64,000 bases of DNA from Flavobacterium praedii. GTDB lineage: Bacteria > Bacteroidota > Bacteroidia > Flavobacteriales > Flavobacteriaceae. Of this stretch, positions 32,468 through 61,847 are shown piece by piece. The notes under the pieces are model-generated. The model ran no database searches and was not told where the DNA came from. It saw nothing but the letters and a program-made list of their open reading frames with translations. Both the position numbers and the translations under genes were made by a program. Numbering within the stretch: position 1 is the first letter of the stretch; every line of letters starts with the position of its first letter. The stretch is from NCBI RefSeq assembly GCF_026810365.1, contig NZ_CP113948.1:2877001-2941000 (forward strand). Direction: 5' to 3'.

Positions 32468-32486
32468 AAATGTATTTTTTACATTT
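32468..32486. promoter_or_regulatory. AraR-type operator dyad, site 1
   Basis: AAATGTA-ttttt-TACATTT is a perfect 7-5-7 inverted repeat. It lies 224 bp upstream of the symporter start and is the more symporter-proximal of the two sites in this region. Confidence 0.6.
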
Positions 32487-32690
32487 ATTTTTTATTTAGT
32501 CAAAAACTCAACAAATACATAAGATTAACCTTAATTATAAAAAACTTTTTAAAGCTAAATAATTTCGTAAAATATCAATTTATACTTTCTGCATTCTGAA
32601 GCGAGATGCCCTCTAAAAAATACCAAACTAGACATAAAATTTTGTTTGCAAAATCATACTTTCTTTTTTTTTTTGTAAAACAAATTTAGT

Positions 32691-32698
32691 TACATTTG
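32691..32698 (+). promoter_or_regulatory. -7 promoter element for transketolase
   Basis: TACATTTG matches the Bacteroidetes TAnnTTTG consensus and ends one base before AraR-type site 2. A TTTG lies 15 bases upstream, which is short for a -33 element. The position next to the dyad implies that a bound protein would cover the start of transcription. Confidence 0.45.
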
Positions 32699-32699
32699 C

Positions 32700-32718
32700 A
32701 AATGTGTTTTTTACACTT
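32700..32718. promoter_or_regulatory. AraR-type operator dyad, site 2 (transketolase)
   Basis: AAATGTG-ttttt-TACACTT has the same 7-5-7 spacing as the other sites and follows a TAnnTTTG element by one base. Transketolase begins 232 bp downstream. Confidence 0.65.
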
Positions 32719-32854
32719 ATTATTTTATAACTCCTTACCTACTCAAAAATAGCTTGTTATTTAAAGAGCCAATTGGAATGAAAAAAAATAATAAACCCCA
32801 TTATTCCATTTAAAGCTAATCCAATTGCTTTAAATTTTAAAAATCGTTGCCCAA

Positions 32855-32953
32855 ATGTCTTTAAATGATACTATCAAATGTGAGATTGATGGATCAAAAT
32901 TAAAAAGAGGCAACAAGAGAACCACTATTACAACCAAATACAATAAATTATGA
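32855..32953 (+). CDS. Possible 32-residue leader ORF overlapping the transketolase start
   Basis: ATG at 32855 opens a 32-codon frame (MSLNDTIKCEIDGSKLKRGN and 12 more residues) whose TGA at 32951-32953 overlaps the transketolase ATG as ATGA. This geometry would permit translational coupling. The peptide is basic and unrecognised, and could be fortuitous in the long 5' leader. Confidence 0.3.
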   Translation: MSLNDTIKCEIDGSKLKRGNKRTTITTKYNKL

Positions 32954-34992
32954 ATCACAAAATGGACCAATTAGCCGCAGACAACATAAGAGCGCTGGCT
33001 ATTTCTATGGTAGAAAAAGCAAATTCAGGACACCCAGGTGGTGCCATGGGAGGAGCTGATTTTATGCATATTTTATACACGGAATATTTAAATTTTGACC
33101 CGACCCAAATGGATTGGCCTTTCAGAGACCGTTTCTTTATGGATGCAGGTCACTTATCGGCCTTGATGTATGCACAATACTATTTGTTGGGAAACTATAA
33201 AAAAGAAGATCTGCAACAATTTAGACAATGGGGATCCGTTACACCTGGCCATCCCGAAGTTGATGTACTCAGAGGAATCGAAAACACATCAGGTCCATTG
33301 GGGCAAGGTCATACGATGGGCGTGGGTGCAGCTATAGCGGCAAAATTTCTTGGAGCCAGATTTGAAGGCCTTTTCGACCACAAAATTTATGGTTTTATAA
33401 CTGATGGAGGTGTACAAGAAGAAATTTCGCAAGGAGCAGGAAGAATTGCAGGACATTTGGGGCTGAACAACTTTATCATGTTTTATGATTCGAATGATGT
33501 GCAACTTTCGTCGATGACCGATGAAGTGACTTCCGAAGATACCGCTATGAAATACCGAGCATGGGGCTGGAACGTAATGACAATTGACGCTCACAATCAT
33601 TTGGAAATTAGAAAAGCTTTGGATACTGCACATCAAGAAACCGAAAAACCTACCTTAATTATTGGCAAAACAATAATGGGTAAAGGTTGTGTTACCTCAG
33701 AAGGAAACATGTATGAAGGAGAATGTGAATTGCATGGAAAACCCATTGGAGACACCAAAGCCGATTACACAAAAACCCTACTAAACCTCAACGCTAATCC
33801 AGCCGATCCTTTTGCGATATATAAAGAAGTAGCCGTACATTACAATCAAGTATTAGCCAAAAAAGTTGAAAAAGCTACTTTGAAAAAACAGCAAATTGCG
33901 CAATGGGAGAATGAAAATCCTTTGCTAGCCAATAAAATGCAACAGTTTTTATCTGGTGAATTACCTGAATTGGATTTGAGTAATGTTGTTCAGAAAGCCA
34001 ATGCTGCAACTAGAGACGCATCATCAGCGGTGCTGGCTTATTTGGCGGAAAATGTAGAAAACATAATCGTTTCATCGGCAGATTTATCGAACAGTGATAA
34101 AACGGATGGATTCTTGAAAAAATCATCTGTGTTGCAAAAAAATAATTTCAACGGTGCCTTTTTACAAGCTGGAGTTGCTGAATTGACCATGACTTCCATA
34201 GCCAATGGTATTGCGCTGCATGGTGGAGTAATCCCAGTTGTAGCGACCTTTTTTGTGTTCTCAGATTATATGAAACCCGCGATACGTTTGGCTGCCATTC
34301 AAGAACTTCCTGTAAAATATGTCCTAACGCACGACTCATTCCGAGTAGGTGAAGACGGACCCACCCACCAACCTATCGAGCAAGAAGCACAAATGCGTTT
34401 GTTAGAAAAAGTCAAAAATCATTCGGGACATCAAAGTTTGGTAGCATTGCGCCCTGCCGATGCCATCGAAACTTCAGTGGCTTGGGATATGGCTTTAAAA
34501 AACACCAAAACACCAACGGCTTTAATTCTTTCGAGACAAAACATTAAGGACATTCCATCTAGCTATACTACAAGATATGAGGAAGCAACAGAAGCTAAAA
34601 AAGGTGGTTATTTGGTCAAAAAAGCACAAAATCCGGACATCACTTTAATCGCAAACGGATCGGAAGTTTCAACACTTATTGATGCCGCTGTGATTTTAGA
34701 GAAAGAGCATAATCTAAAAATCAATATCGCCTCCATTATTTCTGAAGGTCTATTCAAATCACAATCGAAATCCTACCAAGAAAGTATAATTCCAAAAGGA
34801 AAACTCGTTTTTGGACTTACCGCTGGACTTCCAGTAAATCTTGAAGGATTAATTGGTAATAGCGGAAAAATAGTTGGCTTAGATCATTTTGGCTATTCGG
34901 CGCCAGCGAGTGTATTGGATGAAAAATTTGGGTTTACAAGCCAACATGTTTGTACGGAAATACTACAATATATTGAGGAAAGTAAAAAATAG
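32950..34992 (+). CDS. tkt: Transketolase
   Basis: 680 residues in one chain, full transketolase length, cytoplasmic. It is a thiamine-diphosphate enzyme exchanging two-carbon units between xylulose-5-phosphate and ribose-5-phosphate or erythrose-4-phosphate. Signatures are SGHPGGAMGGADFMHILY at the N-terminus, GHGPLGQG-like SGPLGQGHTMGVG, and the pyrimidine-domain Glu in AGVAELTMTSIANGIALHGG. HDSFRVGEDGPTHQPIEQ follows. The usual ThDP motif G-D-G reads T-D-G here (FITDGGVQEEIS), with the downstream Asn kept in DSNDVQL. It is followed 138 bp later by transaldolase, a natural pair. Control by the dyad at 32700-32718 links it to arabinose and xylose use. Confidence 0.95.
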   Translation: MNHKMDQLAADNIRALAISMVEKANSGHPGGAMGGADFMHILYTEYLNFDPTQMDWPFRDRFFMDAGHLSALMYAQYYLLGNYKKEDLQQFRQWGSVTPGHPEVDVLRGIENTSGPLGQGHTMGVGAAIAAKFLGARFEGLFDHKIYGFITDGGVQEEISQGAGRIAGHLGLNNFIMFYDSNDVQLSSMTDEVTSEDTAMKYRAWGWNVMTIDAHNHLEIRKALDTAHQETEKPTLIIGKTIMGKGCVTSEGNMYEGECELHGKPIGDTKADYTKTLLNLNANPADPFAIYKEVAVHYNQVLAKKVEKATLKKQQIAQWENENPLLANKMQQFLSGELPELDLSNVVQKANAATRDASSAVLAYLAENVENIIVSSADLSNSDKTDGFLKKSSVLQKNNFNGAFLQAGVAELTMTSIANGIALHGGVIPVVATFFVFSDYMKPAIRLAAIQELPVKYVLTHDSFRVGEDGPTHQPIEQEAQMRLLEKVKNHSGHQSLVALRPADAIETSVAWDMALKNTKTPTALILSRQNIKDIPSSYTTRYEEATEAKKGGYLVKKAQNPDITLIANGSEVSTLIDAAVILEKEHNLKINIASIISEGLFKSQSKSYQESIIPKGKLVFGLTAGLPVNLEGLIGNSGKIVGLDHFGYSAPASVLDEKFGFTSQHVCTEILQYIEESKK

Positions 34993-35130: not shown

Positions 35131-35787
35131 ATGAAATTTTTTATCGATACAGCAAATTTAAAAGACATCAAAGAAGCCAATGATCTTGGAATATTAGACG
35201 GGGTAACTACAAATCCTTCGCTTATGGCGAAAGAAGGAATCACTGGAGCCGACAATATCATCGCGCATTACGTAAAAATATGTGAATTAGTGGATGGTGA
35301 TGTTAGTGCCGAAGTTATCTCCACTGATTTTGCAGGAATGATAGCCGAAGGAGAAAAATTGGCAGCACTGCATCCCCAGATTGTGGTTAAAATCCCGATG
35401 ATCAAAGACGGCATCAAGGCTATTAAATATTTTTCGAATAAAGGAATCAGAACCAACTGTACCTTAGTTTTTTCAGTAGGTCAAGCATTGCTTGCTGCCA
35501 AAGCTGGTGCCACTTATGTATCGCCTTTCATAGGAAGACTGGATGATATTTCGACAGATGGACTTTCACTTATTGAGGACATCAAATTGATTTATGACAA
35601 TTACGGTTATGAAACCCAAATTCTGGCAGCTTCAGTTCGTCACGTCATGCACATTATAAATTGTGCCAAAATTGGTGCCGATGTTATTACGGGACCATTA
35701 AGCGCAATCGAAGGTTTATTGAAACATCCACTTACCGATAGTGGTTTGGCAACATTCCTTGCTGATTACCAAAAAGGGAATAGCTAG
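35131..35787 (+). CDS. tal: Transaldolase of the FSA/TalC (MipB) type
   Basis: 218 residues, the short transaldolase form, cytoplasmic. Signatures are [32 protein letters not shown], the Schiff-base Lys in [16 protein letters not shown] and [12 protein letters not shown]. The last is the R-x-x-H variant found in true TalC transaldolases and in fructose-6-phosphate aldolases. It would transfer dihydroxyacetone units in the pentose phosphate pathway, completing conversion of xylulose-5-phosphate to glycolytic intermediates with the upstream transketolase. Confidence 0.92.
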
Positions 35788-35974: not shown

Positions 35975-36664
35975 TTAAAAATTCAAAGCAAAATGATTCA
36001 AGAGTTTGGCGTCGTATTTTTCTTTGTCAAAAGTAAAGAGATAAGATCCTTTCCTAGAAGAGGTCATGTCTTTCTCGTCTAATTTTATCAAAATATCCAA
36101 CGAATTTATTTTGCTAATAAAATTTCTTTTATCGATTTCTTTATCCAATATAGATTCGTACAACTTCAGTAACTGGCTCATTTTGAATTTTTCGGGTAAA
36201 AGTTCAAATCCAACTGGTCTCATTGAGGTTCTATAACGCAATCTCCTAATGGCATGAGCCAACATATTGTCGTGGTCAAAAATCAGTTTTGGCACTTCCG
36301 AAACACTAAACCATTTGGCATGGTAATTCTGAATCAATTCAGCATTGTGATTTTCGATATTAATCAGGGCATAATAGGCCACAGATATGGTACGTTCCAC
36401 AGGGTCACGATCAATTTCACTATAGGTATAGAGTTGCTCCATATAGATATCCTGCAATCCTGTATACGTATTCAATACTCGTATGGCTGCAGTATCTAGG
36501 TCTTCCTCTTTTTTTAGAAATCCACCCATTAAAGACCATTTCCCTTTTTCTGGTTCAAAATCTCTTTTAATCAAGAGAATTTTTAACCCTTCTTCATCAA
36601 AGCCGAAAATGATACAATCAACTGCTAGAAGAACTTTGTCTGCTGTACTATAACTATTTAGCAT
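35975..36664 (-). CDS. araR: Nudix-fold transcriptional regulator, AraR-like
   Basis: 229 residues, cytoplasmic. The Nudix domain (AVDCIIFGFDEEGLKILLIKR...) has a broken catalytic box: GGFLKKEEDLDTAAIRVLNT, with RVLNTY in place of R-E-U-x-E-E. The winged-helix region (ELLPEKFKMSQLLKLYESIL...NFISKINSL) closes the protein. In Bacteroides thetaiotaomicron the AraR protein of this family represses arabinose genes and releases DNA when L-arabinose binds. Here the gene diverges from the arabinan susC, and its own promoter region carries a 7-5-7 dyad at 36722-36740, which implies autoregulation. It is a paralogue of the regulator at 29417-30136. The symbol is assigned by family and context. Confidence 0.85.
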   Translation of the reverse strand: MLNSYSTADKVLLAVDCIIFGFDEEGLKILLIKRDFEPEKGKWSLMGGFLKKEEDLDTAAIRVLNTYTGLQDIYMEQLYTYSEIDRDPVERTISVAYYALINIENHNAELIQNYHAKWFSVSEVPKLIFDHDNMLAHAIRRLRYRTSMRPVGFELLPEKFKMSQLLKLYESILDKEIDKRNFISKINSLDILIKLDEKDMTSSRKGSYLFTFDKEKYDAKLLNHFALNF

Positions 36665-36721: not shown

Positions 36722-36740
36722 TAATGTGGTTTTTACACTA
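36722..36740. promoter_or_regulatory. AraR-type operator dyad, site 3 (araR)
   Basis: TAATGTG-gtttt-TACACTA keeps the 7-5-7 form. It lies 58 bp upstream of the araR start codon, consistent with autoregulation. Confidence 0.55.
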
Positions 36741-37211
36741 ATAAAAAATATACCCTTAAAAAAAGCATTAAGTATCTGATTATCTATTTTATGTATATTT
36801 TTTTTTATGCATTACAACTATTGCTTTTAAAAAATAAGTAACACTAAACGGTAAAAAAAGCTCAAATCTCAACCCATTTTAGAATACAAAAAACATAATT
36901 AAGTGTTAATTTTACATTTAATAATATTTTTTTAGGTTTTAATTAATAAAAAAACGAAAAAATAGCAACTTAATTTACTGTTTTTTGTTGCCATATTCCT
37001 ATATTTTTTAAATAAAAATAAATATTCAGAAAAATAATTTAAAAAATAATTTAAAATCAATTTTGAATTTAACATTTATATATACAACTCATTTTCAGTT
37101 ACTTAATTGTTACGAAAACGTTTTTCAATAATCAAAATTACACAAAAACATACGTTTCGCACTATATTTTAGCATATCCATTTTTTTTCAACACTTTTTT
37201 TATCAGATTAA

Positions 37212-37245: not shown

Positions 37246-37264
37246 AAATGTAAAATCTACACTT
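37246..37264. promoter_or_regulatory. AraR-type operator dyad, site 4 (arabinan susC)
   Basis: AAATGTA-aaatc-TACACTT, 7-5-7. It ends 24 bp upstream of the susC start codon, directly after the -7-like element, a position suited to repression. Confidence 0.7.
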
Positions 37265-37288: not shown

Positions 37289-40200
37289 ATGACAACAAAC
37301 CAAAGATTATTTTTTTATTGCAATTTTTTATTGCCTAAAAAAGAATGGCTATTAGCACTATTAGTTATGCTCTTCACTACGTATAATGCATCGGCACAAC
37401 AAGCCAATATTATAAAAGGGAAAGTTACCTCTGAAAAAGATGGGATGCCTCTTCCGGGTGTAAATGTATTAGTTCAAGGAACTTCAACAGCAGTATCAAC
37501 AGGGTTTGACGGAGAATATTCTATTCAAGCAAAACCAACAGATGTACTTGTTTTTTCATACATAGGTTATAAAAATCAAGAAGTAACTATTGCCAACCGC
37601 ACACAAATTAATTTTGCTTTAAGAGAAGACCTTAACAAACTAAATGAAGTAGTTGTAGTAGGTTACGGGACACAAAAGAAAGCTGATTTAACAGGATCTG
37701 TAAGTGTGGTAAACATGAAAGAAGCCAAAACCATTACGACCTATGATCCCGCCAAAATGCTGCAAGGACAAGTGGCGGGAGTAACCGTACAATCGTCAGG
37801 AGAGCCAGGAGGTTATGTTAACGTAAAAATTAGAGGGATTTCTTCTTTTACCAACAACAACCCTCTTTTTGTAATTGACGGAATGATTGTTGATAGTCCA
37901 AACGATTTTGCCCCGGGTGATATCGAATCGATGCAAGTATTAAAAGACGCCTCTTCGGCTGCAATTTATGGTGTTCGTGGAGCCAATGGAGTAATAATTA
38001 TCACTACCAAAAAAGGTAAACAAGGAAAATTTGAAGTGAAATACAAATCTTTACTTGGACTTCAGACAGTACCAACTAAATGGGATTTAACAGACAGAGA
38101 AGGTTATCAAAACATCACAAATGCTGCAGAAACAAATGCTGGAAAAATTCCAACTGCCCCTGGAAATGACTCAACAAGTCCTTACTTTATTAATAATGTA
38201 AATACTGATTGGCAAAAAGAAGCATTCCAGACTGGAGTAATCAACAATCAAGCATTAACTTTTAGCGGTGGCGCCGAAACTATGACATACAACATGAACA
38301 TAGATTATTTCAAAAATACCAGCTATGTAAATTCTCCTCAAGATTATGAAAGAATTTCAACTAACTTGAATCTGTCAGGTAAAAAAGGAAAATTTAAATA
38401 CGGATCAAAAATTGGATACACTCAATCAGATAAAGAAAGCTTTAACAGTTATGTAGGCGAATCGGCAATACAAAGTTTATTAACTGCAATTCCAACAATG
38501 TCTGTATATGATGAGAACAATTTGGGTGGATATGGTGGAACGGATAGTTTTACACAAAGAGCTATATCTATGAATGTTATAGGATTCAACAACTTAATAG
38601 ATAACAGTGGAAAGAGAAATCGTTTCATTGGTGATATTTGGGGTGAACTCGAAATTGTAAAAGGCTTAAAGTATAAAATTGATGCCAGTTTTGACAGACT
38701 GGATTGGAAAGATAGAAAATTCATTCCACCATTTGAATTAGGATGGTACTACGTTACCGAAAATTCAGAAGCTTCACTTGACATAGCTACAGGCAGTCAA
38801 TCAAGAACATTCTTAAATAATTTATTAACTTATGAAACAACAATTGGCAAACACAAATTTGATGCATTAGTAGGATGGGTTCAAGAAAGATCTGATAACT
38901 ACAACCACTATTCAAGAGGAGTAGGTTATATTCCAGGGGAAATAAGCCATCTTGAGTATGCTGATGAAACCACTAGTGGTGAATATGAAAACACAATTAC
39001 AGGGGTCTCCTACTTGAGTAGAATTAATTATTCGTATGATGACCGCTATTTCGTTCAAGGGAATTTCAGACAAGATAAAACGTCACTTTTCAGCCCAGAA
39101 AACAATACAGGAAACTTCTATTCATTCTCTGGTGCTTGGAAAATTAGCAGTGAGGAATTCTTACACTTACCAGAATGGGTAAGCAATATCAAAGTCAGAG
39201 GAGGTTATGGTATTTTAGGAAACAATACTATTGGTGTATACGCTTATGCACCAACTGTAAATCGTTTTGCGGGTTATGATTTTAATAACGAATTTGCTCC
39301 TGGTACAACAGTGGTAAGCGCAATTGACCCTGATGTACACTGGGAGGAAACAAAAAGCACGAACGTTGCCTTGGAGTTAGGATTTCTTAATAACAGTGTG
39401 CAGTTTTCTGCTGAATATTTCATTAAAGAATCTACAGATTTATTAATTGGCGTACCATTGCCATACTCAGCAGGAGCTTTTCCAGCAAATGTAGTAACAA
39501 ACGCAGGAGCTGTTAAAAATAGCGGCTTAGAGTTTACAGCTTCTTATGCAAACAATGACCATGAGTTTAAATACAATATTTCAGCCAACTTAGGAACGCT
39601 GAAAAATGAGGTGTTACAAATTGGAATTAAAGGAAACCCAATTTATGGAGCGGCTTCAAAAACAGAAGTAGGAAGATCAATCGGTGAAATTTTCGCATAT
39701 GAAACGGATGGAATTTTCCAAAATGCTAATGAAATAGCTGCAGGCCCTATTCAAACAAATGCTGGTATTGGAGACATTCGTTTCAAAGACCAAAATGGTG
39801 ACGGACAAATTACTGACGCAGATAGAACCTATCAAGGGACAACAATCCCAAAATACAGTTATGGTATAAACTTGGGCGCATCATATAAAAACTTTGATTT
39901 CTCAATGTTCTGGCAAGGAGCTGGTGGAAATATGGTATTCAATGCAATGTATCGCGATTTGATGAGGGGAGACTATGGTAATCACCATACAGATGAACTT
40001 AATTATTGGTCAACAACAAATACAAATACTAATGTTCCTCGTCCTATCATTGGAGACCCAAATGCAAATGCTAGAGATTCTAATCGTTTTATTGAAAAAG
40101 GAGACTACTTGAAATTACAAACTATGGAGATTGGATATCAAATTCCTGTTCCAACAGACTTTTGTATACAAAAAGCTAAAGTTTATATCAATGGCCAAAA

Positions 40201-40336
40201 CTTATTAACCCTTTCTAAATACAAAGGATACGATCCAGATTTTAACAGTAACGACGGATTATTCTCTAGAGGATATGACGCAGGTTCTTTCCCTAATCCA
40301 AGAACTCTTTCTCTAGGACTTGAAGTAACTTTTTAA
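37289..40336 (+). CDS. susC: SusC/RagA TonB-dependent outer-membrane transporter (arabinan locus)
   Basis: 1015 residues. The signal peptide ends at NASAQQ after a longer-than-usual basic/aromatic N-terminus. A carboxypeptidase-D-like domain (KGKVTSEKDGMPLPGVNV) leads to the TonB-box-like EVVVVGYGTQKKADL, the plug (VLKDASSAAIYGVRGANGV) and a barrel ending LGLEVTF. No STN domain is present. It would import arabino-oligosaccharides with the SusD encoded 29 bp downstream. The enzyme set behind it (GH43, GH51, GH127) defines the substrate as arabinan or arabinose-rich side chains. It is the first gene of the plus-strand block and carries the clearest AraR-type dyad. Confidence 0.95.
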   Translation: MTTNQRLFFYCNFLLPKKEWLLALLVMLFTTYNASAQQANIIKGKVTSEKDGMPLPGVNVLVQGTSTAVSTGFDGEYSIQAKPTDVLVFSYIGYKNQEVTIANRTQINFALREDLNKLNEVVVVGYGTQKKADLTGSVSVVNMKEAKTITTYDPAKMLQGQVAGVTVQSSGEPGGYVNVKIRGISSFTNNNPLFVIDGMIVDSPNDFAPGDIESMQVLKDASSAAIYGVRGANGVIIITTKKGKQGKFEVKYKSLLGLQTVPTKWDLTDREGYQNITNAAETNAGKIPTAPGNDSTSPYFINNVNTDWQKEAFQTGVINNQALTFSGGAETMTYNMNIDYFKNTSYVNSPQDYERISTNLNLSGKKGKFKYGSKIGYTQSDKESFNSYVGESAIQSLLTAIPTMSVYDENNLGGYGGTDSFTQRAISMNVIGFNNLIDNSGKRNRFIGDIWGELEIVKGLKYKIDASFDRLDWKDRKFIPPFELGWYYVTENSEASLDIATGSQSRTFLNNLLTYETTIGKHKFDALVGWVQERSDNYNHYSRGVGYIPGEISHLEYADETTSGEYENTITGVSYLSRINYSYDDRYFVQGNFRQDKTSLFSPENNTGNFYSFSGAWKISSEEFLHLPEWVSNIKVRGGYGILGNNTIGVYAYAPTVNRFAGYDFNNEFAPGTTVVSAIDPDVHWEETKSTNVALELGFLNNSVQFSAEYFIKESTDLLIGVPLPYSAGAFPANVVTNAGAVKNSGLEFTASYANNDHEFKYNISANLGTLKNEVLQIGIKGNPIYGAASKTEVGRSIGEIFAYETDGIFQNANEIAAGPIQTNAGIGDIRFKDQNGDGQITDADRTYQGTTIPKYSYGINLGASYKNFDFSMFWQGAGGNMVFNAMYRDLMRGDYGNHHTDELNYWSTTNTNTNVPRPIIGDPNANARDSNRFIEKGDYLKLQTMEIGYQIPVPTDFCIQKAKVYINGQNLLTLSKYKGYDPDFNSNDGLFSRGYDAGSFPNPRTLSLGLEVTF

Positions 40337-40365
40337 AATTAGCCAACAATTAAAAACGAATCAAA

Positions 40366-41946
40366 ATGAAATATAAAATATATAAATATCTAGCTGGATT
40401 CATTTGCATTGCTGCTGTAACTGCAAGTTGTGTAAACGATGATGATTTACTACAAACTGATCCAAATGTTGATTCCTCAGGATCGTTTTGGAAAACAGAA
40501 AAAGATGCTCTTGAAGGTGTTAATGCCGTTTATGGATGTTTAATAGCAGACGGAACTTATATGAGAAGTACTCCTTTAATGTTGGACACAAAAAGTGACG
40601 ATTCAAGAAGTAACAGCCCTTGGGGTGCAATGTCCAATGTAGGCCGTTTCAACTCAAATGTTTCAGATCCTGCCATCTATGGCTGGGCATATGAAATGTA
40701 TTATCAAGGTATCTATAGAGCCAACCAAGTATTGACGAATGTTCCAAAAATTGATATGGCGGATGCTGCGTTAAAAAACAGAATTCTTGGTCAAGCCTAT
40801 TTTTTAAGAGGTCTGTATCTTTTTCATGCAGTAAACCTATTTAAAAATGTGCCAATTCCTACAGAAATTGCGCTTTATAATCCTCAAAAATCACACGAAG
40901 AAGGTTGGGCTCAAGTAATTGCTGATTTTAAGGCTGCCTCTGATTTATTACCTACAACTTACGCTGGAATATCTGGCATCGATACAAAAGATTCTCAAGG
41001 AAATACCATAAAGGGGCGCGCCACCAAAGGAGCTGCTCTAGGATATTTGGCGAAAGCATATTTATTTACCAAGGATTTTGCAAATGCTAAAACAACATTC
41101 AAACAAGTAATTGATTTAGGCGTTTACTCATTAACAGCAAACTATCGTGATAACTTTACTGATAGCAACGAGAATAATTCAGAATCTTTATTCGAGGTTC
41201 AATTTAGTAGAGATGCTGGTGGAACTACTGAGAGCTGGGGTGGAGTACCAAATGCTAATTGGAGAAAAACTACTGCAAGAGCAATTACCTATGGAGCAAG
41301 AGATTTTGGCTTTGTTGACGTGCAGCCTACTTGGGCATTATTCAATGAATTCCATGATGAAAAAACAACTACAGGTGCAATAGATCCTCGTTTGGATGCA
41401 ACTATGTTCTATAACAAACCTGGAGGAATGCAATTGTATGGTGTAGATTTTGCAACCAAATATGCTAATAGTCCTTTAGATTTGAATGATATATTCTGCG
41501 CTAAATACGAAAATTCAGATGGTGCTTATCCTAATGAATATGACTGGCGTTCAGGAATTAACGAGCGCTTATTACGTTATGCTGACATCTTGCTAATGTA
41601 TGCAGAATGCTTGAATGAAACTGGTGATACTCAGGGAGCATATACATACATCCAAATGGTTAGAGACCGTGTAGGTTTGCCAAACTTAAGCACTGCAAAA
41701 CCAGGACTTAGCCAAGCAGCCATGAGAGACCAAATAGGACACGAAAGATTCTTGGAATTCGCTCTTGAAGGTCACCGCTTTGATGATATTCGTCGTTGGG
41801 GATGGTTGGAAAACCCTACCAAACTAGCATGGTTAAAAGCAAGAGATGCAGAATTTAATTCGTTTTCTCCTGGAAGAGAATATTTCCCAATACCACAATT
41901 AGATATGGATAATAACCCTGGTATGACACAAAATCCAAGTTATTAA
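40366..41946 (+). CDS. susD: SusD/RagB family glycan-binding lipoprotein (arabinan locus)
   Basis: 526 residues with a lipobox AAVTASC followed by VNDDDLL, an acidic run of the type that directs flavobacterial lipoproteins to the cell surface. SusD features are FWKTEKDALEGVNAVYGCL, the helical ILGQAYFLRGLYLFHAVNLF, and the C-terminal ERFLEFALEGHRFDDIRRWG. It works as the lid of the upstream SusC. The 134-bp gap after it contains a strand-specific stem-loop, probably setting higher levels of susCD than of the enzymes. Confidence 0.95.
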   Translation: MKYKIYKYLAGFICIAAVTASCVNDDDLLQTDPNVDSSGSFWKTEKDALEGVNAVYGCLIADGTYMRSTPLMLDTKSDDSRSNSPWGAMSNVGRFNSNVSDPAIYGWAYEMYYQGIYRANQVLTNVPKIDMADAALKNRILGQAYFLRGLYLFHAVNLFKNVPIPTEIALYNPQKSHEEGWAQVIADFKAASDLLPTTYAGISGIDTKDSQGNTIKGRATKGAALGYLAKAYLFTKDFANAKTTFKQVIDLGVYSLTANYRDNFTDSNENNSESLFEVQFSRDAGGTTESWGGVPNANWRKTTARAITYGARDFGFVDVQPTWALFNEFHDEKTTTGAIDPRLDATMFYNKPGGMQLYGVDFATKYANSPLDLNDIFCAKYENSDGAYPNEYDWRSGINERLLRYADILLMYAECLNETGDTQGAYTYIQMVRDRVGLPNLSTAKPGLSQAAMRDQIGHERFLEFALEGHRFDDIRRWGWLENPTKLAWLKARDAEFNSFSPGREYFPIPQLDMDNNPGMTQNPSY

Positions 41947-41971
41947 TATTGTTTGAGTTAGTTTAGTTATT

Positions 41972-42013
41972 AAAATCATGTGGCAACCCTAGAAAAGGAT
42001 GTCACGTGATTTT
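41972..42013 (+). terminator. Strand-specific stem-loop between susD and first GH43
   Basis: AAAATCATGTGGCA (41972-41985) pairs with TGTCACGTGATTTT (42000-42013) over 14 bp with two G-U wobbles on the plus-strand RNA. No U-tract follows. Likely an attenuating or mRNA-protecting stem that separates susCD levels from the downstream enzymes. Confidence 0.5.
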
Positions 42014-42080
42014 ATATCTTAAAATAAAATCGTAAAAGCATTGAGTTTTTTTTTAAATACAACACTTAATTTTTAAAATT

Positions 42081-50554: not shown

Positions 50555-50584
50555 AAGAGATAATAAGAATCTAAGAATTATATA

Positions 50585-52688: not shown

Positions 52689-52788
52689 AAATATCGAAAT
52701 AAATGTTATTTAAACATTTATTTTATTCGTTATTATACAAACCTCTGTATTACTGAGGTTTGAAGAGTATTACAATGCAAAATATATT

Positions 52789-52807
52789 AAGTGTTTTTTA
52801 TACACTT
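52789..52807. promoter_or_regulatory. AraR-type operator dyad, site 6 (araB)
   Basis: AAGTGTT-tttta-TACACTT, 7-5-7. Unlike the susC and tkt sites it lies upstream of the -7 element (52824-52831), over the expected -33 region. Confidence 0.65.
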
Positions 52808-52850: not shown

Positions 52851-54545
52851 GTGATGAAAAATTATGTAATAGGATTAGATTATGGCTCAGATTCTGTTCG
52901 TGCAGTATTAATAGACACTGAAAATGGACAGGAATTAGCATCGAGCGTTTGTGACTACAAGCGATGGGCGACTAAAGAATATTGTAATGCCTCAATAAAT
53001 CAGTTTCGTCAACATCCTTTGGATCACATCGAAGGATTGGAAACGACCATAAAATATGTAGTGGAAAACAGCAAAGTAGATCCTTCCCTTATTCGAAGCA
53101 TCTGCATTGACACTACAGGATCTTCTCCGGTGCCGGTTGCCGAAGATGGAACTCCATTGGCGTTAACCAAAGGTTTTGAGCATAATCCCAATGCCATGAT
53201 GGTCTTATGGAAAGATCATACTGCTATAAATGAAGCAAATGAAATCAATGAATTGGCTGCCAACTGGGGAGGAGAAAATTTCACCAAATACGTAGGTGGC
53301 ATTTATTCATCCGAATGGTTTTGGGCGAAAATATTACATGTTGCCCGACAAGACGAAGCCGTAAAAAAAGCCGCTCACACTTGGATGGAACACTGCGACT
53401 TAATGACGTATTTGCTAATTGACAATAAAGATTTAAAAACATTCAAAAGAAGCCGTTGCGCCGCGGGTCACAAAGCGATGTGGCACGAAGACTGGAACGG
53501 CTTACCGCCAGAGGAATTTTTAGAAAAATTAGATCCGTATTTGGCATCGCTTCGAGGAAGATTGTACGATGAAACTTATACTTCCGATTTGGTAGCGGGT
53601 TATTTAAACCAAGAATGGGCTGCCAGATTGGGACTTTCAACTGACACAGTAATCGCAGTAGGAACTTTCGATGCCCATTCAGGTGCTGTGGGAGCCAAAA
53701 TCGACGAACACACTTTGGTTCGCGTTATGGGAACCTCAACTTGTGATATTATTGTTGATACTAAAGAATCTATCGGAACAAAAACGGTTCGTGGAATCTG
53801 CGGACAAGTAGACGGATCAGTAATTCCCGGTTTTATTGGGCTTGAAGCGGGACAATCTGCTTTTGGAGATTTATTAGCTTGGTACAAAGAATTATTATTA
53901 TGGCCAACGGACCATTTACTAGCCACTTCTACCCTTTTGACTGATGAACAAAAAGAACAATTGAAAGCAGAAATCAGCGACAATTTAATCACACAATTAA
54001 CCGTCGAAGCTGAAAAAATACCATTATCCGAAAGTGTTCCAGTAGCATTAGATTGGATTAACGGTCGACGAACTCCAGATGCAAATCAAGAGCTAAAAAG
54101 CGCCATTGCAAATCTATCTTTAGGAACAAAAGCGCCACATGTGTTCAAATCATTGGTGAATGCCATTTGTTTTGGATCTAAAAAAATCGTAGATCGTTTT
54201 GAGGAAGAAGGCGTTCGTATTGACACCGTAATTGGTATAGGTGGTGTGGCTCGTAAATCACCATTCATCATGCAAACATTAGCCAATGTATTGAACAAAC
54301 CTATCAAAGTAGCTTTATCAGATCAGGCACCAGCATTGGGAGCCGCTATTTATGCAGCCGTTGCCGCCGGAATTTATCCAAACGTAATTGAAGCAGCTCA
54401 AAAAATGGGAAGCCCTTTTGAAAGTGAATATGCTCCGCAACTCGACAAAGTGGCCGCATATAACAAATTACTTTTGGCATACGATCAATTAAGCGCTTTT
54501 GCCGATCCATCCATTAAAAAACAACAACATGAGCTCTATATATAA
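52851..54545 (+). CDS. araB: L-ribulokinase
   Basis: 564 residues, the normal length for AraB, an FGGY-family kinase acting in the cytoplasm on L-ribulose. Signatures are YVIGLDYGSDSVRAVLID, the family KDHTA (VLWKDHTAINEANEI), EWFWAKILH, HKAMWHEDWNGLP, GTSTCDIIVD and the C-terminal GGVARKSPFIMQTLANV. Its stop overlaps the araD start by 17 bp (araD ATG at 54529), giving tight coupling. It starts the catabolic part of the arabinose locus, with its own AraR-type dyad and -7 element. Confidence 0.96.
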   Translation: MMKNYVIGLDYGSDSVRAVLIDTENGQELASSVCDYKRWATKEYCNASINQFRQHPLDHIEGLETTIKYVVENSKVDPSLIRSICIDTTGSSPVPVAEDGTPLALTKGFEHNPNAMMVLWKDHTAINEANEINELAANWGGENFTKYVGGIYSSEWFWAKILHVARQDEAVKKAAHTWMEHCDLMTYLLIDNKDLKTFKRSRCAAGHKAMWHEDWNGLPPEEFLEKLDPYLASLRGRLYDETYTSDLVAGYLNQEWAARLGLSTDTVIAVGTFDAHSGAVGAKIDEHTLVRVMGTSTCDIIVDTKESIGTKTVRGICGQVDGSVIPGFIGLEAGQSAFGDLLAWYKELLLWPTDHLLATSTLLTDEQKEQLKAEISDNLITQLTVEAEKIPLSESVPVALDWINGRRTPDANQELKSAIANLSLGTKAPHVFKSLVNAICFGSKKIVDRFEEEGVRIDTVIGIGGVARKSPFIMQTLANVLNKPIKVALSDQAPALGAAIYAAVAAGIYPNVIEAAQKMGSPFESEYAPQLDKVAAYNKLLLAYDQLSAFADPSIKKQQHELYI

Positions 54546-55230
54546 AGACTTAAAACAAGAATGCTACGAAGCGAATATGCAATTGAATGCACTGAATTTG
54601 GTAGTTTACACTTTTGGAAACGTCAGTGCTGTAGATCGCAAAAATGGCGTTTTTGCTATCAAACCAAGTGGTGTTCCTTATGAAGATTTGAAACCGGAAG
54701 ATATGGTGATTCTTGATTTTGACAACAACATCATCGAAGGAACGATGCGACCGTCTTCGGACACCAAAACACATGCTTATTTATACAAACATTGGCCAAA
54801 CATTGGCGGTGTAGCACATACTCATGCCACTTATTCGGTGGCTTGGGCACAATCACAAAGAGACATTCCGATTTTTGGAACCACCCATGCCGACCACTTA
54901 ACCTCAGATATCCCCTGTGCTGCCCCAATGAATGACAGCTTAATCGAAGGAAACTACGAGCATAATACGGGTATCCAAATTTTGGATTGTTTCAAAGAAA
55001 AAAACCTTTCGTACGAAGAAGTAGAAATGGTATTGATAGGGAATCATGGCCCTTTCGCCTGGGGGGCAACCGCAGCCAAAGCAGTTTACAATTCTAAAGT
55101 TCTAGAAGTTGTAGCCGAAATGGCGTATCTGACTTTGCAAATAAATCCTAATGCTCCGAGATTGAAAGATTCTTTAATCAAAAAGCATTACGAACGCAAG
55201 CACGGGAAGGATTCGTATTACGGACAGTAA
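54529..55230 (+). CDS. araD: L-ribulose-5-phosphate 4-epimerase
   Basis: 233 residues from the ATG at 54529 (MSSIYKDLKQECYEANMQL). An ATG in the same frame at 54499 would only add ten residues that lie inside araB and do not match the family start. The aldolase class II fold shows FGNVSAVDR, IKPSGVPYEDL, SSDTKTHAYLY and the zinc-site HTHATY near residue 95. GNHGPFAWG follows near 168. It makes D-xylulose-5-phosphate, the same entry point as xylB, so both sugar branches meet at the transketolase encoded nearby. Confidence 0.95.
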   Translation: MSSIYKDLKQECYEANMQLNALNLVVYTFGNVSAVDRKNGVFAIKPSGVPYEDLKPEDMVILDFDNNIIEGTMRPSSDTKTHAYLYKHWPNIGGVAHTHATYSVAWAQSQRDIPIFGTTHADHLTSDIPCAAPMNDSLIEGNYEHNTGIQILDCFKEKNLSYEEVEMVLIGNHGPFAWGATAAKAVYNSKVLEVVAEMAYLTLQINPNAPRLKDSLIKKHYERKHGKDSYYGQ

Positions 55231-55324
55231 TTTTAGTTTAAGGTTTCTTTAGTTTAAAGTTGTTTAAACTAAAACGAAACTTTAAACAATTTTAAACTTT
55301 AAACAATTTTAAAAAAATAGTATA

Positions 55325-56833
55325 ATGATAGATATATCTCAAAAAGAAATTTGGTTTGTAGTAGGAAGCCAAGAATTATACGGTGAAGAAACACTAAGAA
55401 AAGTAGCCGAGCATTCGCAAATAATAGCAAAAGGATTGAATGTGTCTTCAAAATTACCAGTGAAATTGGTATACAAAGATGTAGTAAAATCTCCAGCGCA
55501 AATCATGAATGTATGTTTGGAAGCGAATTCCAACAAAAACTGTATTGGAATCGTGGCTTGGATGCACACGTTCTCGCCAGCCAAAATGTGGATTGGCGGT
55601 TTAAGCATTTTGAACAAACCATTATGTCATTTGCATACACAATTCAATGCCGAAATTCCTTGGGCTTCAATCGACATGGATTTCATGAACTTGAACCAAT
55701 CAGCTCATGGCGACAGAGAATTTGGTTTTATCATGTCTAGAATGCGTAAAAAACGCAAAGTAATTGTTGGACATTGGGAAGACGAACGCGTTCAGACAAA
55801 AATTGGAAACTGGACAAGAGTAGCGCTAGGTTGGAATGAATTGCAAAATCTAAAAGTAGCCCGTATTGGTGATAATATGCGTGAAGTAGCCGTTACCGAA
55901 GGAGACAAAGTAGAAGCACAAATTCGCTTTGGAGTTGCTGTAAATGGTTTTGATTCCTCGGATGTCACCAAACATATCGAAAAAGTAACTGATAAACAAT
56001 TAGCTGATTTATTGGCAGTTTATGAAGCTTCTTATAATTTGACTCCATCCTTGAAAGAAGGCGGAGCACAAAGACAATCATTGGCGGATGCTGCAAAAAT
56101 CGAATTGGGACTAAGAGCATTCCTTGAAGAAGGAGGTTTTGGAGCTTTTACCGATACTTTTGAAAACTTAGGTGCTTGGAAACAACTTCCTGGAATTGCA
56201 ACCCAACGTTTAATGGCCGATGGTTATGGTTTTGGTGGCGAAGGGGATTGGAAAACCGCTGCAATGGTTAGAGCATTGAAAGTAATGAATGTGGGACTTG
56301 AAGGAGGAACATCGTTTATGGAAGATTATACGTATCACTTTACTCCTCAAAAATCGTATGTTTTGGGATCGCACATGCTTGAAATTTGTCCATCTATCGC
56401 TGATGGAAAACCAAATTGCGAAGTGCATCCATTAGGAATTGGAGGCAAAGAAGATCCAGCGCGTTTGGTGTTTAATTCACCTGCCGGAGAAGCCATCAAC
56501 GTATCTTTGGTAGATATGGGAACCCGTTTCAGATTAATTGTAAACGAAGTAACAGCAGTAAAACCAATGGCTGAATTGCCAAAACTTCCAGTGGCGCGAG
56601 TATTGTGGGATTGCAAACCAAACCTTGATATTGCAGCTACGGCATGGATTCTTGCCGGTGGTGCGCATCATACGGTTTACAGCCAAGCGGTAACTACTGA
56701 ATTTATGGAAGATTTTGCCGATATTGCAGGAATTGAATTATTGGTAATCGATGCCAATACCACTATCCGTAATTTCAAAGATACGATCAATGCGAATGAA
56801 GCGTATTTCCATTTGTTTCAGCACGGTTTGTAA
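55325..56833 (+). CDS. araA: L-arabinose isomerase
   Basis: 502 residues, standard AraA length, cytoplasmic, converting L-arabinose to L-ribulose. Signatures are [41 protein letters not shown], and the metal ligands in [15 protein letters not shown] and [20 protein letters not shown] and the late HHTVYS follow. It is separated from araD by 94 bp of AT-rich sequence with small dyads, without an obvious promoter. The order araB-araD-araA matches Bacteroides arabinose clusters as I remember them. A Flavo-1-like element follows its stop codon. Confidence 0.97.
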
Positions 56834-56864
56834 TACCTAAAAAATGTGTAAGTTAGCACTGTTT

Positions 56865-56970
56865 GCGTGAGTGATGGCAGTGGAGCTCTTTTTTTGATCC
56901 CGTTTTTTCGGGATCAAAAAAAAGCGGGAACGTACAGCACGACCCGAAGTCTTTACGAAGGGACACGCCC
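56865..56970 (+). ncRNA. Structured intergenic element, Flavo-1-like, copy C
   Basis: Starts GCGTGAGTGATGGCAG, ends CACGCCC, with GCGTG/CACGC pairing. Hairpin 1 is CTTTTTTTGATCCCG with CGGGATCAAAAAAAAG (56888-56924). Hairpin 2 pairs GTCTTT with AGGGAC. The conserved GGATAGCCC word is degraded to ACGACCC here. It lies between araA and the mutarotase gene on the coding strand. Confidence 0.5.
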
Positions 56971-57020
56971 ATAATAAGAAAATTTTTGTTTATAGAATTA
57001 AGTCTTAAAAAATCTAATAT

Positions 57021-58208
57021 ATGAATCTAGTAAAACGTTGTATTTATGGAATTTCCATTTTAAGTTTAGCAAGTATGAATGTGCAGTGCAAAGGAGAAAA
57101 AAAAGAAGATGCAGCGGAAACTGCTCTCGAAGCTAAAGCTACTGATTCTGTATCTATAGCGAAAACGGTTTATGGTAAAACCGACAAAGGGGTGCAAATA
57201 GACCGCTACACACTGAAAAACCAGAAAGGAATGGAAGTAAACATCATTACTTATGGTGGTATAATTTCTTCGCTAAAAGTACCCAACAAAGCGGGTATAT
57301 CCGAAGAAGTGGTGATTGGTTTTAATTCATTGGAACAATACATGAAAGCCAATCCGTATTTTGGGGCTCTTATCGGAAGATATGGAAACCGAATTGCGAA
57401 AGGTAAATTTACTTTGGATGGAAAAGAATATTCGCTGGCCATCAACAACGAGCCAAATGCTTTGCATGGCGGACCGGAAGGTTTTCACAGAGTGGTTTGG
57501 ACTGCAGAAGAAGCCAAAGGCGGAGACTCAGCTTCTCTAAAATTGAAGTATGTAGCCAAAGACATGGAAGAAGGTTATCCAGGAAACTTGACGGTTTTTG
57601 TGACCTACACTTTGAACCAAGACAATGCTTTGGACGTTTTGTATGAAGCAACTACAGATAAGAAAACGGTGGTAAACTTAACGCAGCATTCGTATTTCAA
57701 CCTGTCGTCTGATTTTTCTAAACCTATTTTGGATCATGAAATCACGATTGATGCTGACAAATTGGTCCCTGTAGATGCAACCCTTATTCCAACAGGTCAA
57801 TTGACGGATGTAACCAATACTCCATTCGATTTTAGAAAACCTAAATTGGTTGGAAAAGAAATCGAAGCCAATGACGATCAGTTGAAAAAAGGATTGGGTT
57901 ACGACCACTGCTGGGTGCTGAACAACCAAGGCAAAGGAGATCGTTTAGTAGCTTCAGCTTACCACGCAGGAAGCGGTAGACTCTTGGAAGTATATACCGA
58001 TCAACCGGGAATTCAGTTTTATTCTGGGAACTTCCTTGATGGAACTTTACCGATGCGTAACGGTGGAACATACGCGCATAGAACTGGTTTTTGCTTGGAA
58101 ACACAACATTATCCAGATTCTCCCAATCAAAAAGATTTTCCTACGACTGTGTTAAGTCCAGGAGAAAATTATAAAACAAAAACAACTTTTAAATTTTCGG
58201 TTAAGTAA
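57021..58208 (+). CDS. galM: Aldose 1-epimerase (mutarotase), probably exported or lipid-anchored
   Basis: 395 residues. The core matches GalM: GGIISSLKVPNKAG, YGNRIAKGKFTLDG, NNEPNALHGGPEGFH, the catalytic His in NLTQHSYFNL and the late LETQHYPDSPNQ. Unlike the E. coli enzyme it has an N-terminal hydrophobic segment ending SMNVQC, then a charged linker KGEKKEDA, so it is probably a periplasmic or outer-membrane lipoprotein. There it would equilibrate anomers of arabinose or galactose released by the glycosidases. It ends the plus-strand arabinose block: a strong terminator follows. Confidence 0.9.
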   Translation: MNLVKRCIYGISILSLASMNVQCKGEKKEDAAETALEAKATDSVSIAKTVYGKTDKGVQIDRYTLKNQKGMEVNIITYGGIISSLKVPNKAGISEEVVIGFNSLEQYMKANPYFGALIGRYGNRIAKGKFTLDGKEYSLAINNEPNALHGGPEGFHRVVWTAEEAKGGDSASLKLKYVAKDMEEGYPGNLTVFVTYTLNQDNALDVLYEATTDKKTVVNLTQHSYFNLSSDFSKPILDHEITIDADKLVPVDATLIPTGQLTDVTNTPFDFRKPKLVGKEIEANDDQLKKGLGYDHCWVLNNQGKGDRLVASAYHAGSGRLLEVYTDQPGIQFYSGNFLDGTLPMRNGGTYAHRTGFCLETQHYPDSPNQKDFPTTVLSPGENYKTKTTFKFSVK

Positions 58209-59380: not shown

Positions 59381-59845
59381 ATGACTTTCAAACACATATT
59401 CAAAGCAGTAGCAAAGTGGACTTCAAATCAAGAAGATTCCACAAAGCGATTTTACAGCAAAAGTCACCAGATTCTAATTGAAGGAAAACCGGTTTTACAT
59501 GTTTCGGCTGCGAAAGCTTTCAAAGGGGATCCGGAATTGTACAATCCGGAGGATTTGCTTTTAAGCAGTTTGGTTTCCTGCCACATGATGTCCTATTTGT
59601 ATGTCTGTTCTCAAAACGAAATAGAAGTTTTGGAGTATTCAGACAATGCTGAAGCAACACTGGAGGTTTCTCCTGACGGAAGCGGGCGTTTTATTGAGGT
59701 TCTATTAAATCCAAAAGTAACAATTGCGAATCCTGATAAAATTCAAATGGCTTTGGATTTACATCACGAAGCAAATCAATTATGTTTTATAGCCAATTCT
59801 TGCAATTTTCCTGTTTTGCATAATGCGAGCTGTGAAGTAAAATAA
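59381..59845 (+). CDS. OsmC-family peroxide/thiol-stress protein
   Basis: 154 residues from the ATG at 59381; a GTG at 59360 in frame would add seven Lys-rich residues. OsmC fold with the two redox Cys in context: SSLVSCHMMSYLY and NQLCFIANSCNFPV. It would reduce organic hydroperoxides in the cytoplasm. It lies 78 bp after the hydrolase gene and shows no link to polysaccharide use. A stem-loop separates it from the convergent GH97 gene. Confidence 0.85.
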   Translation: MTFKHIFKAVAKWTSNQEDSTKRFYSKSHQILIEGKPVLHVSAAKAFKGDPELYNPEDLLLSSLVSCHMMSYLYVCSQNEIEVLEYSDNAEATLEVSPDGSGRFIEVLLNPKVTIANPDKIQMALDLHHEANQLCFIANSCNFPVLHNASCEVK

Positions 59846-59850
59846 ATAAG

Positions 59851-59882
59851 CCATATAAGTTTACTAACATGAACTTATATGG
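59851..59882. terminator. Stem-loop between convergent OsmC and GH97 genes
   Basis: CCATATAAGTT (59851-59861) and AACTTATATGG (59872-59882) form a perfect 11-bp stem. It has no T-tract but lies exactly between two convergent stop codons. Confidence 0.5.
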
Positions 59883-59902
59883 CCTATATGATTTTAAAAA
59901 AA

Positions 59903-61822
59903 CTACATCTTCACCACAAAACCACCATCAGATTTCATTGCTATTTTGATTTTTTTGTTCTTGGATACAGGAAACTGCTGAAAACCTTTTTCATTTTCTA
60001 AAATAACATAACCGGATTCGTTAGTGACAAATGACAAATCAAGTTCTATTTCTTTGGCTTTATTTTCTCCATTGATTCCAACAATGTGCCAAATGTTGTC
60101 TTTTTTTCTGGCCATAACAATATACTTTCCTGGATAACCGTCTATGAATTTGGAATCATCCCAATTGGTCGGAATATCTTTTAAATAATCGATCACGTAT
60201 TTTGGCATTTTGGCCATACCCATAGGTGTTTCGGCAATGTGCTGGATCCCCGACAGAAATAAAACGGGCAAAGCCAACTCAAAAGCGGGTGTTGTTTTGC
60301 GCTTAATATTTGGGATAGAATCCAATACCATGGGCGTAAAATCCATTGGATCAAAAACGTTTCTGGCAAAAGGGAGCATTGTGCAATGGCTTGGCTGCAA
60401 ATCGGCAGTTTCTTGAGTAAAAGTAATATACTCTTCGCCTTTAATTGCTTCGGTAGTCAGTAAATTGGGATAGGTACGTTGCCAGCCTCTTGGCAAAGTC
60501 GCACCGTGGAAATTGATGAGCAATTGATGTGCTGCAGCATCTTTGAGCATCGCGTGGTAATACGCAATCATAGATTGTCCGTCTCCACCAAAAAAATCGA
60601 CTTTGATTCCTGCAATTCCCATTTCCTTTAGTTTTGAAAATTCTTTGTCACGATCGGCATGGGTTAGTAATTTCCCTTTTGGATGGTATTCTGTGCTATT
60701 CCAAGATCCAGACGAATTATACCAAACCAATAATTTTACTTTTTTTGCTGCGGCGTGAGCTACCAATTCCTTCATTTTGGCATCTCCTATTCTGGTGTCC
60801 CAATCCGCATCAATCAAGCAATACGGCCAATTCATACTGGAGGCATAATCGATAAACTGCAAGGTAGTTTCAAAATTAACGGATTCATCTTTTAGCAAAA
60901 CCCAACTCCAAGAAGACAATCCGCTTTTGATAAAAGAAGTATCCATAGGAATCGCAGGATCGGCCAAATCGGTTCCAAGTGTACTTTCGGTTATCGTTTT
61001 CAAAGAACCGATCGTTATGATTCGCCAAGGCGTGTACCAAGGCAATTGTGACTCTGGATTAAGAGCACCGTTTGGAAAAATCTCTTCCTTTTGCGGAAAC
61101 GTAACTTGCAGTGCTTTTGAAGCATCATTATACACCAATCGACTGCCACAGTAGTTGTCCTGCAATCCCGTTTCGGTAATCAAAACCCAAGCCTCATTGG
61201 CATTGAACAAAGCCGGATACACCCACCCTTCTCCAATCGCTGGCTTGGTATTTACGGGAACGCCCATTTTATAATGCTCTTCGTAGGACGGATTGGTTTC
61301 TTTCCAACCTGTTTTGGCTTTAGACATGGGTTGTAGCCACGCTTTAGCAGACGCGTCAAAATTATAGGTGGTTTTCTCTTCCGTAATTTTCTTGATATCC
61401 ATGGAACTTTTAGGAAAATGATACCGCAAAGCAATTCCATCATGGGAAAGCTGAAAAATAATTTCCAAGGCTTCTCCAATTTTGTTTTGCAAGCTCACTG
61501 TATATTCGTAGGCAGCATAATGGATGTTTTTTCGTTTCCCTTGAAACATCGAATAATTGGAAGTTACGGCTTTGACTTCAGAGACGTTTACAATCTTCAT
61601 ATCAGTATAAAAATTGGCATCCTCCCGAATAATTCCAAGATCAGAAGTATTGATAACCAATTTATTTTTATAGAAAACTTTATAAGAAGGTGTTTTCTTC
61701 GAGCTCAGGTTAAATTCAACTTTTATCGTTTTATCCGCATTGAAAAAGGAATAATTGGCAGGGGTTTCAGCAAATGAAAAAAGTAAAAAAACCAATAAAA
61801 GAATACTGTATATTTTCTTCAT
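59903..61822 (-). CDS. GH97 alpha-galactosidase, retaining type
   Basis: 639 residues with signal peptide near LLFSFAETP. N-terminal sandwich, then a barrel with the nucleophile D409 in GIKVDFFGGDG and acid Glu in the AIKGEEY stretch (about 463-464). The SusB-type base positions are missing, and LLVWYNSSGSW replaces the GYHETG region. These are the marks of the retaining GH97 branch, known as alpha-galactosidases in Bacteroides. It would free galactose in the periplasm. An AraR-type dyad lies 7 bp upstream of its start. Its neighbours are a symporter and galE, a small galactose set. Confidence 0.9.
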   Translation of the reverse strand: MKKIYSILLLVFLLFSFAETPANYSFFNADKTIKVEFNLSSKKTPSYKVFYKNKLVINTSDLGIIREDANFYTDMKIVNVSEVKAVTSNYSMFQGKRKNIHYAAYEYTVSLQNKIGEALEIIFQLSHDGIALRYHFPKSSMDIKKITEEKTTYNFDASAKAWLQPMSKAKTGWKETNPSYEEHYKMGVPVNTKPAIGEGWVYPALFNANEAWVLITETGLQDNYCGSRLVYNDASKALQVTFPQKEEIFPNGALNPESQLPWYTPWRIITIGSLKTITESTLGTDLADPAIPMDTSFIKSGLSSWSWVLLKDESVNFETTLQFIDYASSMNWPYCLIDADWDTRIGDAKMKELVAHAAAKKVKLLVWYNSSGSWNSTEYHPKGKLLTHADRDKEFSKLKEMGIAGIKVDFFGGDGQSMIAYYHAMLKDAAAHQLLINFHGATLPRGWQRTYPNLLTTEAIKGEEYITFTQETADLQPSHCTMLPFARNVFDPMDFTPMVLDSIPNIKRKTTPAFELALPVLFLSGIQHIAETPMGMAKMPKYVIDYLKDIPTNWDDSKFIDGYPGKYIVMARKKDNIWHIVGINGENKAKEIELDLSFVTNESGYVILENEKGFQQFPVSKNKKIKIAMKSDGGFVVKM

Positions 61823-61828
61823 GATAAT

Positions 61829-61847
61829 AAGTGTTTATTTTACATTT
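61829..61847. promoter_or_regulatory. AraR-type operator dyad, site 7 (GH97 alpha-galactosidase)
   Basis: AAGTGTT-tattt-TACATTT, 7-5-7; on the minus strand it reads AAATGTA-aaata-AACACTT. It lies 7 bp before the GH97 start codon, so a bound protein would sit at or just after the transcription start. It implies arabinose control of a galactosidase. Confidence 0.6.

Follow-up and report, generated by a model that had tools for sequence, protein, structure and literature searches.

AraR of Bacteroides thetaiotaomicron (BtAraR; BT0354) is a repressor of the NrtR family that combines a Nudix domain with a winged helix (PMC4666351, PMC5061871). The AraR regulons of Bacteroides and Prevotella, with their motif, structure and response, have already been published. 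In these reports, the BtAraR regulon takes in the arabinan polysaccharide utilization locus (PUL), GH43, GH51 and GH97 genes, the arabinose catabolic genes and araR itself; the crystal operator reads GTGT-N7-ACAC (PMC4666351), L-arabinose relieves DNA binding in vitro, and an araR mutant supports repression in vivo (PMC5061871). AraR of Bacillus subtilis is also described as an arabinose-relieved repressor of arabinose genes, but belongs to a different protein family (GntR). Here, we describe a set of DNA dyads in a 64 000-nucleotide stretch of Flavobacterium praedii (contig NZ_CP113948.1, positions 2,877,001 to 2,941,000), referred to below as the window, which lies in a genome of one contig (4.17 Mb). 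Nine dyads in its arabinose region are very probably operators of a Nudix-fold AraR encoded in the same stretch at 35975-36664, a prediction that draws on the sequence and spacing of the sites, on their intergenic position, conservation and linkage to araR, and on the retention of sensor and central DNA-reading residues in the protein.

All nine copies of the dyad, (A/T)A(A/G)TGT-N7-ACA(C/T)T(A/T), are intergenic within 32245-62052 and share the fixed core RTGT-N7-ACAY. The geometry at these arabinose promoters, (G)TGT-N7-ACA(C), is that of the BtAraR crystal operator, except that the first core base may be either A or G here, against G in the Bacteroides sequence (PMC4666351). The predicted operators stand before the sodium:sugar symporter gene SSS1 (32468-32486, AAATGTATTTTTTACATTT), the transketolase-transaldolase genes tkt-tal (32700-32718, AAATGTGTTTTTTACACTT), araR, which suggests autoregulation (36722-36740, TAATGTGGTTTTTACACTA), the arabinan susC (37246-37264, AAATGTAAAATCTACACTT), the GH127-GH51 genes (48533-48551, AAATGTAATATATACACTT), araB, where an upstream site (52701-52719, AAATGTTATTTAAACATTT) accompanies one at the promoter (52789-52807, AAGTGTTTTTTATACACTT), and a GH97 gene (61829-61847, AAGTGTTTATTTTACATTT), with a further copy in the middle of the araR-susC gap (36901-36919, AAGTGTTAATTTTACATTT). 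An original prediction made from the window alone had named seven of these; all seven are present and intergenic, while those at 36901 and 52701 had been missed. It had also described the dyad as strictly 7-5-7. The fixed spacing stood, as a scan of spacers from 0 to 15 in the window gave 10 matches at spacer 7, including these nine, and none at any other, but the layout is better written 6-7-6, with A, G or T at position 7.

The dyad is a genuine feature, present in great excess over random expectation. The 19 intergenic stretches of the arabinose region (3,359 bases, 76% A + T) hold nine sites, where 2000 dinucleotide shuffles yielded 0.0165 on average and never more than 2. DNA of this composition does generate loose look-alikes, and matches with three mismatches are common (shuffle mean 15.6), but the excess of exact sites, their strict spacing and their conservation at orthologous promoters leave functionless chance dyads an almost negligible explanation.

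Across the whole genome, the strict pattern occurs 16 times (six for the reversed control), and nine of these sites sit in the arabinose region. Of the remaining seven, five lie within open reading frames; the two intergenic ones are that at 19806 and another flanked by NRDD and radical-SAM genes. The strict pattern yields no plausible regulon member outside the arabinose locus. This distribution also bears on another candidate reader, a global regulator of the Crp-like type. The motif printed for such a regulator in Bacteroides, TATGTT...AACATA, has similar ATGT/ACAT half-sites and is reported upstream of the araMPRDAB, xylRBAE and fuc operons (PMC3878776). However, a Crp-like reader is very improbable, given the concentration of the dyads at the arabinose genes, the reading-frame positions of most others, and a printed consensus that sets ATGT and ACAT six rather than seven bases apart, a spacer with no match in the window and one intergenic match in 80 loci of relatives.

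These relatives are the 80 named AraR loci among the matches listed (1.57 Mb, 11.2% intergenic; related species were not thinned, and 30 short loci from whole genomes, in part duplicates of named contigs, were left out of the counts). They contain 251 strict sites, of which 250 are intergenic and one falls in an open reading frame, with at least one site in 77 of the 80; each other spacer from 3 to 12 gave zero or one intergenic match and each of six control dyads zero to two. The scans of genome and relatives that had been proposed alongside the original prediction thus speak for it and against a motif equally common within genes. For genes whose available upstream sequence spans 300 bases or more, and counting sites within 600 bases upstream in the correct direction, we found a site before araR in 71 of 79 loci, SSS1 in 36 of 42, susC in 34 of 39, araB in 30 of 35 and tkt in 12 of 14: operators are conserved before araR, the symporter, susC, araB and transketolase. 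The counts were 33/70 for GH51a, 1/15 for GH127 and 0/1 for GH97; since gene labels in relatives are best BLAST hits to window proteins, paralogues dilute some denominators (GH127, GH51a and araM). Conservation scores were computed on upstream regions with at least one strict site, from at most 40 relatives, which inflates the apparent conservation of the operator arms, so we prefer the presence counts.

Two close genomes, G030 and G094, have positional counterparts for eight of the nine window sites, among them the SSS1 site, the one in the middle of the araR-susC gap, the one before GH127 and the 88-bp pair at araB. GH127 membership is supported in these two relatives. In the window, tkt and SSS1 are divergent neighbours (32245-32949), and in G030 and G094 approximately 17 kb and 22 kb separate the two genes, both of which have an operator there, so we assign the site at 32468 to SSS1 and that at 32700 to tkt. 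The difference in spacing reflects a recent insertion or deletion that left both operators in place. On a wider scale, an AraR scoring over 300 bits is present in 32 of 101 Flavobacterium genomes, and motif counts minus the reversed control are higher in these, at +0.77 per Mb versus −0.50 in the other 69 (Mann-Whitney p 1.6e-4, not corrected for relatedness).

The transketolase provides a natural control. Close relatives of the single-chain tkt (32950-34992, plus strand; tal follows at 35131-35787, plus strand) were found at E-values of at most 1e-100 in 13 of 101 Flavobacterium genomes, as 15 copies. All eight copies on the araR contig carry a strict operator one base past TA(C/T)ATTTG, seven of them within approximately 3 kb of araR and one (G062) approximately 23 kb away. 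None of the seven unlinked copies has an operator in the 600 bases upstream; six of these belong to AraR-positive genomes, and two share their genome with another copy. The F. praedii genome also encodes a two-gene transketolase (approx. 282 and 317 residues; G000:C1:150.7-152.3 kb) without a dyad, presumably the housekeeping enzyme, and a second transaldolase (80% identity) without an operator. By sequence, tkt-tal of the arabinose region looks like a catabolic spare set, and as a second set its membership of the regulon is less odd; with a separate operator-free transketolase and transaldolase, basal pentose metabolism should survive repression. Transketolase and a galactosidase had been singled out at the start as the less expected members. 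Transketolase is a well-supported member, and GH97 is the weakest.

We found two proteins with an NrtR winged helix in the genome, both encoded in the window. The one at 35975-36664 (minus strand) matches BtAraR (5bs6) with an E-value of 2.1e-66 and 47% identity, and as the alignment is gapless the residue numbers coincide. It has the architecture of Bacteroidota AraR, an N-terminal Nudix-like sensor domain and a C-terminal NrtR/AraR winged helix (PF00293, 46 bits; PF21906, 76 bits; PF19368, 33 bits; all above cut-off), and its gene is linked to araBAD and arabinan genes. The Nudix catalytic box is degenerate, the box pattern not being found in the protein. Residues that hydrogen-bond L-arabinose (R34, R86 and H131) are retained, as are the core DNA contacts K179, R180 (intercalating) and N181; Y5, F36, G47, G48, F49 and F129 are also shared with BtAraR, and the protein has T92. 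In an alignment of 81 sequences, R34 is present in 80 (with one gap) and R86, H131, K179, R180 and N181 in all 81. Among the named loci, the closest AraR is that of F. taihuense (99% identity). The description of Nudix-fold AraR as an arabinose-responsive repressor in Bacteroides, on which the original assignment leaned, agrees with published work.

The second protein, an XylR-like paralogue (29417-30136, plus strand) divergent from the adjoining xylBA, belongs to the same family; like XylR (BT0791) of Bacteroides, it has a pentose catabolic locus next to it. Read by this protein, alone or together with AraR, the dyad would be a shared pentose operator, which would explain both the transketolase and a symporter adjoining xylR. 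Apart from AraR and this paralogue, no NrtR-type protein was found in the genome; the paralogue also scores higher than AraR against the AraR_C domain (59 versus 33 bits) and is encoded near the SSS1 and tkt sites. We nevertheless judge it not to be the reader of the dyad, and consider its involvement unlikely. In the window's own protein, the positions of R34, F36, F49 and the intercalating R180 are occupied by H43, E45, W58 and S190, respectively. No strict site was found in 25 Flavobacterium XylR loci (92 kb, approx. 1.5 kb each side), nor in 20 kb at loci L183 and L184. Two genomes with XylR but no AraR orthologue (G033 and G024) have no sites in 20 kb around xylR, whereas around araR in two genomes with AraR but not XylR there are four (G010, one of them upstream of tkt) and two (G092). 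Siteless XylR loci and the missing Arg34 and Arg180 equivalents in the paralogue, added to the clustering and intergenic position of the sites, support both the regulon and its original assignment to the AraR at 35975-36664.

Several observations weigh against this assignment or limit its reach. BtAraR K184, K204 and R205 are replaced by S184, R204 and K205, so that basic charge is retained at 204 and 205 only, and R183, K200, A207 and A208 are I183, M200, S207 and Y208 here. The 2015 paper calls the base contacts K184, K204 and R205 absolutely conserved (PMC4666351); we treat this as an observation on the species set of that study, not as a defining trait of AraR. Strict sites are missing from three of the 80 relatives' loci (L058, L096 and L097), and from within 1.5 kb of araR in four of seven inspected Flavobacterium genomes that have AraR without XylR (there are nine such genomes; G051 and G005 have one strict site each in 20 kb around araR). 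Beyond the genus, the regulators of L169, L170 and L185 are closer to the window's XylR-like protein yet have R34, R86, H131 and R180, with a nearby dyad that is strict in L169 and one base off in L170 and L185; L169 adjoins both xylBA and araBDA. For the paralogue as reader, these distant Bacteroidota regulators are a point in favour. Because of them and the four siteless loci, the division of labour between AraR and XylR is supported for Flavobacterium but not for the phylum. The membership of GH97 rests on one genome, and exact −7 boxes have no common offset at araR, GH51a and most susC sites of relatives.

The combination R34/R86/H131 is not exclusive to AraR, being found in three XylR-side relatives of other families as well. 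At least one strict site, always intergenic, was present in 10 of 20 more distant loci of the phylum (9 of 17 with an AraR-labelled and one of three with an XylR-labelled regulator), and four distant AraR-side proteins in which residue 179 is not lysine (L174, L176, L177 and L186) had no strict site. The L169 regulator is perhaps a single one for both pentoses. Covariation of protein and operator was considered and rejected: at AraR loci with R183/R184, 10 of 12 core half-site bases are G/C versus 195 of 430 in the main I183/S184 class, but the former are too few and another class, with 0 of 4, goes against the trend.

Bacteroidota promoters carry the motif TAnnTTTG as their −7 box, together with a weak box at −33. 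For several genes, the −7 box TANNTTTG lies at a fixed offset from the operator: at −9 in all 12 tkt cases; at +48 in 29 of 36 SSS1 cases, with six more one base off; and at +35 in 17 of 43 operator-gene pairs for araB, with seven more one base off. In the window, the tkt operator starts one base past the −7 box TACATTTG, the GH97 operator lies one base past TAAACTTG on the GH97 strand, and the araB promoter operator is upstream of the −7 box TATATTTG. The −7 box TAAATTTG begins two bases past the operator at 36722, read on the araR strand. One-mismatch boxes occupy the tkt position at susC and GH97, and a further −7 box overlaps the SSS1 operator.

By analogy with BtAraR, we infer arabinose-relieved occlusion of promoters in Flavobacterium. 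A dimer of AraR free of sugar would sit on RTGT-N7-ACAY and block transcription, covering the start point at tkt and, going by the one-mismatch box, at susC and GH97, and lying across or just upstream of the −33 region at araB and SSS1. Binding of L-arabinose in the Nudix pocket would shift the winged helices and release the DNA. Release would then be expected to turn on uptake (SSS1 and SusCD), arabinan debranching (GH43, GH51, GH127 and GH97), araBDA and araR itself, and the second, catabolic transketolase and transaldolase. Phasing of paired sites on the helix, as in a DNA loop, seemed plausible from window spacings of 179, 232 and 345, which are near whole turns, but was dropped as the 38 distinct site distances in the 80 loci have no evident periodicity around 10.5 (Rayleigh p 0.35; the best value, p 0.02 at 10.2, came from 21 periods tried). 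In these loci, 24 pairs are exactly 99 bp apart and 12 exactly 89 bp, a recurrence that may stem from shared ancestry.

The system differs from that of B. thetaiotaomicron in more than its host. There, araR is part of araMPRDAB, whereas here it stands alone, and tkt-tal and the SSS symporter have predicted operators of their own. The arabinan PUL of B. thetaiotaomicron has the hybrid two-component regulator BT0366; among the annotated genes of the window beside the arabinan PUL (37289-48512), we saw neither a hybrid two-component regulator nor one of another kind, the rest of the genome not having been searched. The main text of PMC4666351 mentions neither 'Flavobacter' nor 'transketolase', although tkt may be in its supplementary tables, and that of PMC3878776 mentions neither 'transketolase' nor 'tkt'; among the titles listed from open-licence PMC text, supplements excluded, none concerns AraR in Flavobacterium or AraR with transketolase. 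Tentatively, and with rather more doubt than belief, we suggest that AraR of the Flavobacteriia may be the only local arabinan switch and may have captured central metabolism as well, in the form of a dedicated catabolic transketolase and transaldolase with an operator when near araR and none otherwise. The shifted I183, S184, R204 and K205 might relax its recognition so that A as well as G is tolerated at the position read as G by Bacteroides AraR, in which case protein and operator would have changed together within the family.

The findings would extend a structurally solved sugar repressor of gut Bacteroides to Flavobacterium, with the operator definition RTGT-N7-ACAY and with transketolase-transaldolase and the symporter as additional conserved targets. 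They also offer two natural controls: one transketolase that has or lacks an operator according to linkage, and a pair of neighbouring paralogous regulators, only one of which fits. Arabinose regulons in Flavobacteriia can be called with this pattern, which requires more care in other Bacteroidota.

The GH97 gene (59903-61822, minus strand) has a site in this genome only, and the gene was not found in the stretches fetched from G030 or G094. The nearest solved structure to its product is 5xfm (E 1.3e-136, deposited as an alpha-glucosidase), with GH97 alpha-galactosidases far behind at approximately 1e-43. We take 5xfm to be BT3661, a beta-L-arabinopyranosidase/alpha-galactosidase; if so, L-arabinose is a product that the GH97 enzyme can set free, and its presence in the regulon is not anomalous. 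The published Bacteroides AraR regulon already includes GH97 genes (PMC4666351).

The right half of the window is an arabinose region. SSS1 (30559-32244, minus strand) opens it, and beyond tkt-tal and araR lie, on the plus strand, the susC-susD pair of the arabinan PUL (37289-41946), a run of GH43, GH51, GH43, GH43 and GH43 enzymes (42081-48512), the GH127 and GH51 enzymes (48590-52688), and araB, araD, araA and an araM-like aldose epimerase (52851-58208); GH97 and a second symporter complete the region. The left half is a xylose region with xylA, xylB, the XylR-like regulator and a glycosidase PUL. The tenth strict site of the window (19806-19824) is intergenic between two PUL genes of this xylose side, within a long hairpin (TGTACCGATAAGTGT...ACACTACTTATCGGTACA), and has the appearance of a terminator, not of an operator. 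At the start of xylB (29080-29097), the perfect palindrome AACCATAACGTTATGGTT may be an operator for XylR; two of 25 Flavobacterium XylR loci contain its centre, namely its own and that of G094. Tandem duplicates of the XylR-like regulator are present in many Flavobacterium genomes.

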